From positions 1-52,911 of the forward strand of contig CAINXS010000073.1 in assembly GCA_903854995.1 (NCBI GenBank): a DNA stretch of 52,911 nt, given 5' to 3'. This stretch comes from Candidatus Moraniibacteriota bacterium. Its GTDB lineage: Bacteria > Patescibacteriota > Minisyncoccia > Moranbacterales > UBA1568. The position numbers were made by a program, and so were the translations under genes. This document shows positions 13,584-47,749 of the stretch, in pieces. The notes under the pieces are model-generated. The model was given only the letters and a program-made list of their open reading frames with translations, did not search any database and was not told where the DNA came from. Positions within the stretch are counted from its first letter, which is position 1, and every line of letters begins with the position of its first letter.

Positions 13584-13680
13584 CGTTGTCATTCCGACCG
13601 AGTCCGCAAGTGGAGGAATCTGCCCTACAACACGATTCACCTCCGTTTATTGCAAATTCCTCGACTTCGCTCGAGATGAC
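13584..13680. repeat. dispersed palindromic repeat, copy 1
   Basis: GTTGTCATTCCGACCGAGTCCGCAAGTGGAGGAATCT ... CCTCGACTTCGCTCGAGATGAC; arms inverted. Confidence 0.85.
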
Positions 13681-13703
13681 AAACAAAAAGAATTGAGTAT
13701 AAA

Positions 13704-13831
13704 CGTTGTCATTCCGACCGACGAGTCTGCAAGGAGTGGAGGAATCTGCTTGAAGCGAGAACCTGCTTGATTCGTTGCAGATCCCTCGACTTCTCCGGCA
13801 TGCGCCGGACTTCGGCTCGGGATGACAAACT
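13704..13831. repeat. dispersed palindromic repeat, copy 2, with nested core TCCGGCATGCGCCGGA (13794-13809)
   Basis: GTTGTCATTCCGACCGA...GGAGGAATCT...AGATCCCTCGACTTC[TCCGGCATGCGCCGGACTTC]GGCTCGGGATGAC. Confidence 0.85.
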
Positions 13832-13844
13832 ATGTTGTGAATGT

Positions 13845-14126
13845 ATGAAAGCATACTGCGTTTACATTCTCGCGAGTATCAATAAAACGCTCTATATCGG
13901 GGTGACAAGTGATTTGAAGTGGCGTATTTGGGAACATAAAAACAAGGTTGTGCCGGGCTTCACGGAACGGTACAATGTCGACAGGCTGGTGTATTATGAA
14001 CAGACGGAGAATGTCTATTCGGCACTGGAACGCGAGAAACAGCTAAAGAAGTGGCGAAGGGACAAGAAAATATCCCTGATCGAGAAAGAGAATCCGCTGT
14101 GGGAGGATTTGTATCCGACATTGTGA
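13845..14126 (+). CDS. GIY-YIG nuclease superfamily protein, single-domain
   Basis: MKAYCVYILASINKTLYIGVTSDLKWRIWEHKNKVVPGFTERYNVDRLVYYEQTENVYSALEREKQLKKWRRDKKISLIEKENPLWEDL; ATG at 13845 inside the listed ORF. Confidence 0.93.
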   Translation: MKAYCVYILASINKTLYIGVTSDLKWRIWEHKNKVVPGFTERYNVDRLVYYEQTENVYSALEREKQLKKWRRDKKISLIEKENPLWEDLYPTL

Positions 14127-14147
14127 GCGACGGCGTGTCAATTGCTG

Positions 14148-14195
14148 GTCCCTCGACTCCTCCGGCATGCGCCGGATTTCGGCTCGGGATGACAA
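14148..14195. repeat. right half of dispersed palindromic repeat (copy 3), with nested core
   Basis: GGTCCCTCGACTCC[TCCGGCATGCGCCGGATTTC]GGCTCGGGATGACAAAC. Confidence 0.85.
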
Positions 14196-14217
14196 ACAAA
14201 AAGAATTGAGTATAGTC

Positions 14218-14371
14218 GTTGTCATTCCGACCGAGTCCGCAAGTGGAGGAATCTGAATGGAACGAGGAAATTGATCTTGTTTGTAGCAGATCCCTCGACT
14301 ACGCTAGGGATGACAACATTAGGTCCCTCGACTATTCCAGCATGAGTCAGATTTCGGCTCGGGATGACAAT
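14218..14371. repeat. dispersed palindromic repeat, copy 4, plus a second degenerate right half
   Basis: GTTGTCATTCCGACCGAGTCCGCAAGTGGAGGAATCT...AGATCCCTCGACTACGCTAGGGATGACAACATTAGGTCCCTCGACTAT[TCCAGCATGAGTCAGATTTC]GGCTCGGGATGAC. Confidence 0.8.
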
Positions 14372-37379: not shown

Positions 37380-37382
37380 GAG

Positions 37383-37466
37383 TGCCGAAGGGGAGACTCG
37401 AACTCCCAAGGGATTGCTCCCGCCAGGACCTAAACCTGGTGCGTCTGCCAATTCCGCCACTTCGGC
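37383..37466 (-). tRNA. tRNA-Leu (anticodon TAG)
   Basis: GCCGAAGTGGCGGAATTGGCAGACGCACCAGGTTTAGGTCCTGGCGGGAGCAATCCCTTGGGAGTTCGAGTCTCCCCTTCGGCA; 7-bp acceptor, long variable arm. Confidence 0.93.
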
Positions 37467-37482
37467 AATACTGATGTCTCAA

Positions 37483-37660
37483 GAGACTCGTCCGGCATGC
37501 GCTACGCTGCTCGCTAAAATCGCAATGTACCCTTTGAATACCGGGGCGAACTCCCAGGGGGTTGCTCCTGCCAGAGCCTAAACCTGGTGCGTCTGCCAAA
37601 TCCCCGCCCGCATCGCTATGCTTTCGCTTGCGTAGCGTTGCGGGTGGGAGCCACTTCGGC
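37483..37660 (-). pseudogene. interrupted, degraded tRNA-Leu copy
   Basis: Minus strand GCCGAAGTGG-[46-nt hairpin]-GGATTTGGCAGACGCACCAGGTTTAGGCTCTGGCAGGAGCAACCCCCTGGGAGTTCG-[insert]-AGTCTC. Confidence 0.8.
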
Positions 37661-37678
37661 AAATCGATACGGTTACGG

Positions 37679-37990
37679 TCAGACAATCCGCGCATCGGGC
37701 CCAAGTTGTTCGATCATCCTTCGTGCCTCCTCTTTCAACGGACCCTCGTCATCATACTCGCCGTGATGGCGGGTTCCTTCACCGTACGTTTCACGTTTCT
37801 GGTCGAGATGAAAATTCATGTGTAACGATACCCCTTCCAATTTCGCATAGCAGTGAAAACGCGGATATCCCGATCGGGACAACGGCCTGATGAAGCTCAT
37901 TTCTGCGCCTTCCTTGCATTGAAAGACATAGCCAAGGCGGCGGAGCATGGTGACGGGATCGGCTGGCAGTGTTTTGACTTCGAGTTTCAT
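37679..37990 (-). CDS. conserved-looking hypothetical protein
   Basis: MKLEVKTLPADPVTMLRRLGYVFQCKEGAEMSFIRPLSRSGYPRFHCYAKLEGVSLHMNFHLDQKRETYGEGTRHHGEYDDEGPLKEEARRM, codon-like composition. Confidence 0.7.
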   Translation of the reverse strand: MKLEVKTLPADPVTMLRRLGYVFQCKEGAEMSFIRPLSRSGYPRFHCYAKLEGVSLHMNFHLDQKRETYGEGTRHHGEYDDEGPLKEEARRMIEQLGPDARIV

Positions 37991-38017
37991 GGGGTTTCAT
38001 CTCAACGGGCGAAGGCG

Positions 38018-38033
38018 TCCGGCGTGTGCCGGA
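38018..38033. repeat. palindromic core variant TCCGGCGTGTGCCGGA
   Basis: GGCGTCCGGCGTGTGCCGGACGCC extended palindrome. Confidence 0.75.
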
Positions 38034-38078
38034 CGCCTTGTGACCACGGAAGCGCTACGGAAGCCTCGTACCGACAGA

Positions 38079-38140
38079 GTCGGAGTGTCGGGAATGGTCC
38101 GGCATGCGCCGGACGCCCCGCGAATGCCGGGGCGAACCCG
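38079..38140 (-). pseudogene. tRNA-Pro 3' fragment interrupted in the T-loop by a palindromic insert
   Basis: GTCGGAGTGTCGGGAAT [GGTCCGGCATGCGCCGGACGCCCCGCGAATGCCGGGG] CGAACCCG versus intact GTCGGAGTGCCGGGAAT-CGAACCCG. Confidence 0.75.
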
Positions 38141-38171
38141 TAACCAAGCCGTCTTTTTCAGTGCCTTCTTG

Positions 38172-38242
38172 TCGGAGTGCCGGGAATCGAACCCGGATTA
38201 CACGAACCCGAATCGTGCGTAATACCACTATACCACACTCCG
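38172..38242 (-). tRNA. tRNA-Pro (anticodon CGG)
   Basis: CGGAGTGTGGTATAGTGGTATTACGCACGATTCGGGTTCGTGTAATCCGGGTTCGATTCCCGGCACTCCGA. Confidence 0.9.
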
Positions 38243-47373: not shown

Positions 47374-47510
47374 ATGGTCTGTTTTATGGCTTCTTTCGGC
47401 TTTATATAGCCAAATACAGGTCTATTATAGCATGAAAAGGAGGAGAGGGGAATCCGACTTTACATACAAGAATCAAAAAACCCCGTTTTGGGGTCTTGTG
47501 ATTTCCGTTG

Positions 47511-47597
47511 AGGAAAGGGAGGGATTCGAACCCTCGAGGCCCTTGCGGGCCTGCCGCTTTTCGAGAGCGGTACCTTCAACCACTCGGTCACCTTTCC
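47511..47597 (-). tRNA. tRNA-Ser (anticodon CGA)
   Basis: GGAAAGGTGACCGAGTGGTTGAAGGTACCGCTCTCGAAAAGCGGCAGGCCCGCAAGGGCCTCGAGGGTTCGAATCCCTCCCTTTCC; long variable arm. Confidence 0.9.
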
Positions 47598-47729: not shown

Positions 47730-47749
47730 GACCACTCGGTCACCTTTCC
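47730..47749 (-). pseudogene. 5' fragment of tRNA-Ser
   Basis: GACCACTCGGTCACCTTTCC (plus strand); 19 nt identical to 47579-47597 of the intact gene, then diverges into GC-rich palindromic sequence. Confidence 0.75.

Follow-up and report, generated by a model that had tools for sequence, protein, structure and literature searches.

A double-hairpin element at tRNA T-loops and its linkage to small GIY-YIG nuclease genes suggest a homing cassette that spares its tRNA targets

The window, meaning the whole 52,911-nt stretch of Candidatus Moraniibacteriota DNA analysed here, is a contig of a 1.11-Mb draft genome in 90 contigs; this genome was read around matches and tRNAs. Its tRNA genes and their broken copies all lie on the minus strand. 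The intact tRNA-Pro(cgg) gene (38171..38242; ARAGORN) stands upstream, in the tRNA sense, of its own broken 3'-type copy, which consists of the kept T-stem 5' strand ACGGGTTC (38134..38140, about nt 50-56), a double hairpin of 19 + 18 nt at TTC^57 (38097..38133; 61.8 bits with our covariance model R1) and the 3' fragment from nt 57 to the 3' end (38079..38096). In the tRNA sense this copy reads CGGGTTC, the insert GCCCCGGCATTCGCGGGGC GTCCGGCGCATGCCGGAC and then CATTCCCGACACTCCGAC, a clean 37-nt insertion at C56^57; we refer to the double hairpin as element A. A palindrome, AAGGCGTCCGGCGTGTGCCGGACGCCTT (38012-38039), adjoins this scar and has the same GTCCGGC arms; it could represent a terminator or else a relative with one hairpin only. 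The intact tRNA-Leu(tag) gene (37382-37466; ARAGORN, and RF00005 at 52.9 bits) likewise neighbours a broken copy, made up of a fragment of nt 1-56 (37548..37661; a 53-nt BLAST match at 90.6%), a 58-nt long variant of element A at TTC^GAG (37490..37547) and the kept T-stem 3' strand GAGTCTC (37483..37489), so that the tRNA sense reads GGGAGTTC, 58 nt and GAGTCTC. The 58-nt insert retains the outer arms GCCCCGG.../...CCGGAC and is enlarged in the middle by another hairpin, and a second hairpin insert occupies the D-arm of the fragment (about 37604-37649). Between the Pro and Leu loci lies a 103-aa ORF (37679..37990, minus strand) with no match in Pfam or NCBIfam; the order Pro(cgg)-ORF-Leu(tag) is common to six genomes, and we therefore rejected the ORF as mobile cargo between the two copies, since it is ancestral and syntenic in all six. 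The third tRNA of the window, tRNA-Ser(cga) (47510..47597; ARAGORN), repeats the pattern at another loop: its broken copy keeps nt 1-19 (47731..47749) and runs at the D-loop into GC-rich hairpins unlike element A.

A sequence-only reading had located and transcribed both inserts between 37483 and 38140 correctly, and the clean 37-nt insert that it saw in a second Pro copy and the insert in a degraded Leu copy are both real. The copies themselves are smaller than it implied: that of Pro comprises only the T-arm and 3' end (about nt 50-76); that of Leu runs only from the 5' end to the T-arm and carries the additional D-arm insert. The T-loop break that it proposed stands, on flanks that fit a T-loop better than it had stated; in the sister genome G004 the site reads CGGGTTC[A]GATTCCCGGCACTCCGAC, with zero mismatch.

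Element A is built of two inverted hairpins of 18-19 nt each, about 36 nt in total. Among the collected copies the consensus is, for the 5' half, [T-stem 5' strand]GGTTC ^ HP1 (GYCC-n-GC-ATNC-GC-n-GGRC) and, for the 3' half, HP2 (GCCC-n-GC-GNAT-GC-n-GGGC) ^ GA[A/T/G]TCC. Because the HP2 loop is the reverse complement of the HP1 loop, the element is dyad-symmetric, and model R1 matches most copies on both strands. The stems show compensatory changes, with a covariation of 0.226 versus 0.110 in shuffled alignments (0/500). A second type, with 20-nt hairpins and TCATNCGA replacing GCATNCGC, is found in certain other hosts within the order and phylum. Insertion is at TTC^GA nearly without exception among the collected copies, which came from a screen that demanded TTCG at the left side. 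Two loci place element A in the anticodon loop of tRNA-Ser-CGA (CTC^GAAAT and TTC^GAAAAC; L119 and L261), and a MITE of about 125 bp in G003 (AATACCGAAATAACTTGA...TTGGTATTA, L158-L172) carries one element-A-type hairpin at GGAGTTC^GAACTCC, such MITE copies making up 14 of the 15 loci read. The T-loop, the Ser-CGA anticodon loop and the MITE together therefore define the address as YTC^GA in the middle of an inverted repeat, with the T-loop as the universal case; the T-loop proposed as target from the sequence alone is thus the main site within a broader address, YTC^GA(A) at a stem-loop centre. The tRNA-Leu locus of G003 also holds MITE-like sequence. A search of the inserts against Rfam for a ribozyme or intron returned tRNA families and chance matches only, and across 13 tRNA loci no group I intron core was matched at E up to 1.

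The broken copies follow a simple rule, seen directly in the sequences. A 5'-type copy consists of tRNA nt 1-56 and element A, with the intact gene downstream, and a 3'-type copy of element A and nt 57-76, with the intact gene upstream; broken and intact copies lie nearly always on the same strand. The shortened side of the broken copy usually retains 5-8 nt of T-stem, and homology to the intact copy usually stops within a few nucleotides of the mature tRNA ends, longer stretches being mostly tandem arrays. Such arrays comprise four 95-bp units in G056 and two units each in G002 and G037. In the genome of the window, broken copies lie within 1.2 kb of 21 of the 45 intact tRNAs, versus 0 in a reversed-query control. 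Model R1, which includes T-arm flanks and thereby favours T-arm sites, places element A in at least 20 of 131 genomes of the order and at least 23 of 380 of the phylum, lower bounds from a first look that scored part of the candidates; most genomes surveyed, that of the window included, are fragmented drafts. Of the 40 order loci fetched, 38 contain an intact tRNA; of 25 phylum loci, 22 have one no more than about 330 nt away. A pattern scan also found element A with tRNA-Ser fragments on Smithella and Syntrophaceae contigs, and exact-pattern scans of viral_contigs for phage carriage gave no match, which excludes exact forms only. A palindromic element addressed to the T-loop that leaves tRNA fragments beside intact genes, as the sequence-only reading had suggested, is thus borne out at dozens of loci: nearly all copies in the genome are tRNA-derived, and the 12-mer GTCCGGCATGCG occurs three times in the whole genome, each time within a tRNA copy, which speaks against chance matching of the Leu and Pro flanks.

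Occupied and empty alleles of the window's own hairpin scars are found among its relatives, as the comparison with sister genomes proposed earlier anticipated. The Pro scar is present in its own genome and G004, degenerate and doubled in G002, and its site is empty in G001, G003 and G005; the Leu scar is present in its own genome and G004, partial in G003, and its site is empty in G001, G002 and G005. At tRNA-Tyr, the broken and intact copies are identical over 60 nt within each of four genus genomes, and up to 16 of these 60 positions differ between genomes (none between G000 and G004). Identity within and divergence between genomes indicate that repeated insertion or gene conversion is ongoing, both of which are expected from recurrent breaks.

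A small GIY-YIG ORF often fills the gap between the broken and intact copies, giving the order tRNA(1-56)-A-ORF-intact tRNA, so that element A, read earlier as an element alone, is linked to a nuclease gene. The ORF starts shortly past the T-stem, and its stop lies mostly -15 to +24 nt from nt 1 of the intact same-strand tRNA; in several cases the stop codon is a TAG within the intact tRNA. Of the 24 small GIY-YIG loci fetched in the genus, with a few further matches left out, 13 adjoin a tRNA in this manner; if such abutment occurred at a 2% rate, P would be about 1e-16. In Smithella (L108, L119, L122) the ORF also abuts a tRNA, ending 1-2 nt ahead of tRNA-Ser. The proteins are 80-100 aa long, that of the G000 tRNA-Tyr cassette having 87 aa, and match the catalytic domain (PF01541, 54.3-62.7 bits) and that domain alone, without a separate DNA-binding domain; their nearest solved relatives are UPF0213 proteins. 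In a tree of the GIY-YIG proteins, those linked to element A required 4 label changes versus 12.2 after shuffling (0/500), and they cluster despite coming from hosts of different families and phyla. Outside this cluster fall GIY-YIG proteins of the same genomes at tRNA-Trp, Lys and Ala, where the hairpins are unlike element A, and those of the MITE type. A few relatives that lack element A directly upstream (at Glu, Gln and Ser and at two Smithella loci) also belong to the clade; most of them have it elsewhere at the locus. Protein type matches hairpin type: one subclade (L250/L243/L244/L265/L261, support 100/99) is exactly the TCATNCGA-type set and the remaining proteins go with GCATNCGC, so that the 20-nt type is found at 5 of 5 loci in the subclade and the other type at 10 of 10 outside it, a sixth 20-nt locus (L271) being omitted from the tree for its frameshifted ORF. 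In these tree comparisons phylogenetic non-independence is controlled only in part, and family f11, which holds both hairpin types, argues against simple host inheritance. D-loops and anticodon loops carry hairpins of other sequence, which we catalogued and which occur with other GIY-YIG clades.

Several further features were noted as well. Another clade is represented in the window by a GIY-YIG gene (13767-14126) that lies between MITE-like repeats (region 13640-14330; GTCATTCCGACCGAGTC.../CCTCGACT...CTCGGGATGACA) with a CTCCGGCATGCGCCGGA hairpin, and similar units occur in G004 and G005. A GIY-YIG ORF in G004 (L298, G004:C29:11833-12045) appears by eye to lie within a 23S rRNA gene. An element of about 100-120 nt, element B (TCGAACGGGCAGRA...), sits beside tRNA-Gln, Glu and Gly (L062, L064, L074), flanked by the tRNA 3' end on one side and by a complement of that end on the other, with three tandem inverted copies after tRNA-Gln. 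Element C (ACGCCGGARCG..CGTGAGGCGGTGCCTAACCCGAGTCGTRCGACGG..GAGAGGTGAAGGAG) lies beside tRNA-Lys(ctt) (L065, about 1190-1310) and tRNA-Arg(gcg) (L081, about 2776-2870); it is conserved between two unlike tRNAs and might be a structured RNA. Neither B nor C had an Rfam match. At L071 (about 1150-1780) an AT-rich gene, alpha/beta-hydrolase-like by eye, stands between an intact tRNA-Lys(ttt) and a hairpin joined to the 3' half of that tRNA, so that cargo other than GIY-YIG may be carried.

Hairpin and nuclease in combination suggest a selfish element able to home into tRNA genes and yet spare them. From these sequence patterns we infer, with a probability of roughly 0.6, a small mobile cassette of which element A forms the hairpin end or scar, and whose single-domain GIY-YIG endonuclease acts by T-loop cutting followed by repair. 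The enzyme's cut in a tRNA gene would fall at YTC^GA, either of the T-loop or of the similar anticodon loop of tRNA-Ser-CGA. After repair, one copy of the tRNA would be left interrupted at this point by the double hairpin and an adjacent copy would be intact, through which the host would survive. Element A at the junction would serve as a recognition or protection element; since each half presents an ATNC loop, the two lying on opposite strands, it could be read by a dimer. In the putative full form (tRNA nt 1-56, element A, GIY-YIG ORF, intact tRNA) the ORF would lie behind the tRNA promoter and end on the intact tRNA, and hairpin-only copies, both in the window included, would be remnants whose ORF was lost or never present. 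Against this proposal stand the many element A copies, both in the window among them, with no adjoining GIY-YIG gene, the small size of proteins in which the catalytic domain alone is matched, the apparently cuttable T-loop of the intact neighbour tRNA, and the other hairpin kinds at D-loops and anticodon loops, which make element A not the sole solution.

Two inverted hairpins with dyad symmetry resemble a BIME, and the fixed short sequence that adjoins the hairpin, together with Y1 transposases in 4 of the 6 genus genomes, would suit a non-autonomous element of REP/BIME kind that an HUH (Y1) transposase mobilises via single-stranded hairpins, with GIY-YIG genes as passengers. We consider this unlikely, because G002 and G005, both rich in copies, gave no Y1 match, the hairpin base has only YTC/GA flanks and no GTAG-type tetranucleotide, the GIY-YIG clade fits the hairpin type and the copies remain beside tRNAs. 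Site-specific recombination at the T-loop by a tyrosine recombinase or an integron-like system, in which element A would be the folded site of recombination, would explain the restored intact tRNA, and the hairpin sites and tandem units are reminiscent of cassette arrays; T-loops are, moreover, known integrase targets. Phage_integrase, however, has one strong match per genome in five genomes, with a second, weaker one in G002 and none in G003, and among the matches listed none lies at a tRNA cassette; the spacers are mostly 10-60 nt, without an integrase, and this origin is improbable. As the motor of the element, Y1 and tyrosine recombinases were rejected, as neither is obligatory. A reverse transcriptase was also rejected: such genes (L302-L306) occur in all six genus genomes, with no link to the elements seen. 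Their LPLGNLTSQL-like motif, read by eye, looks to be of a diversity-generating retroelement or group II-like kind, and they are probably diversity-generating retroelements.

A different possibility is that the interrupted copies are not insertion remains but selected RNA or DNA features, such as tRNA-derived decoys, regulators of GIY-YIG translation or sponges. The compensatory stem changes would be expected of such features, as would fragments that stop at the mature tRNA ends and often match the intact copy at 100% identity, and T4 hairpins upstream of endonuclease genes are described as repressing them (PMC2988022). Presence or absence nevertheless differs among sister species, 5' halves and 3' halves are both found, tandem arrays differ in unit number and the dyad symmetry suits DNA better than RNA, so that we regard selection of this kind as distinctly unlikely. 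Most improbable is that tRNA genes simply duplicated in tandem and decayed, with hairpins made by slippage and GIY-YIG genes arriving by chance: tRNA clusters do duplicate readily and the fragments look like pseudogenes, but an element of about 36 nt sits at an identical nucleotide across different tRNAs, species and phyla, the reversed-query control had no matches and the GIY-YIG abutment is far beyond the 2% rate.

Returning to the GIY-YIG cassette, we propose more tentatively, at somewhat less than even odds, a wider form of it: a selfish nuclease with its own strand-symmetric double-hairpin recognition element would home into YTC^GA stem-loop DNA, above all the T-loop, rebuild an intact tRNA at each insertion, thereby treat essential genes as safe and renewable landing sites, and cross phyla. 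Since tRNA genes are indispensable and can scarcely change, almost any tRNA gene of any bacterium would in principle be open to an element addressed to the universal T-loop. Such an element would account for odd tRNA fragments in reduced genomes, and its protein of about 85 residues would allow a clean bench test. It would also join the cutting of tRNA genes by phage GIY-YIG enzymes to mobile mitochondrial double hairpins, a pairing absent from the literature searched; that literature, with subscription papers largely outside it, held no account of tRNA-loop hairpin inserts with GIY-YIG genes.

Each known system shares part of this arrangement. Mitochondrial double-hairpin elements (DHE) of Allomyces and others, like yeast mitochondrial GC clusters, are short pairs of adjacent GC-rich hairpins, mobile as judged by presence and absence and tolerant of compensatory change. 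Element A likewise consists of two adjacent short GC-rich hairpins with conserved loops, but it lies on bacterial rather than organellar contigs, has a fixed target in tRNA loops and is linked to a nuclease gene. REP/BIME units are inverted pairs of short palindromes served by RAYT (Y1) transposases, whereas element A lacks the GTAG mark and an obligatory Y1 gene and is lodged in tRNA copies. Rickettsia palindromic elements are palindromic insertions, some of them within RNA genes; unlike element A they are much longer and have no fixed target nucleotide or paired intact copy, and we know of no nuclease linked to them. Genomic islands of tyrosine recombinases target the T-loop or anticodon loop, keep the tRNA intact and leave a fragment; element A differs in its lack of an integrase, its tiny cargo, its 5'- and 3'-type duplications and its junction hairpin. 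GIY-YIG homing enzymes usually carry an extra DNA-binding region; the ORF described here resembles a free-standing GIY-YIG homing endonuclease gene in sitting beside its target, between the broken and intact tRNA.

The closest experimental precedent is SegB, a GIY-YIG enzyme of phage T6. SegB is described as cleaving inside tRNA genes at the motif RAWTSGAAC and as driving tandem amplification of tRNA-Tyr with a truncated segB (PMC13096335), with recombination between the segB 3' end and the tRNA 5' end (PMC13096335; PMC2988022). By our reading, the reverse complement of this motif, GTTCSAWTY, corresponds to the T-loop sequence at the insertion point of element A; the T-loop is unmentioned in the text of the SegB paper that was searched (PMC13096335). 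GTTCSAWTY fits 42 of 53 element A sites, read in the tRNA sense with flanks joined, and 29 of 46 intact tRNA T-loops of the genome, an agreement that follows from the T-loop location and is therefore no independent evidence of site choice. The elements described here differ from SegB in being chromosomal, in Patescibacteria and Smithella, in encoding single-domain proteins of 80-100 aa, and in having both a broken tRNA copy and, where the cut would fall, a cognate double hairpin; in the passages on SegB that were consulted (PMC13096335; PMC2988022) neither was found. As far as those sources describe SegB, the two have in common a GIY-YIG gene that adjoins tRNA genes, the tandem amplification of tRNA-Tyr and, on the other strand, the T-loop motif.
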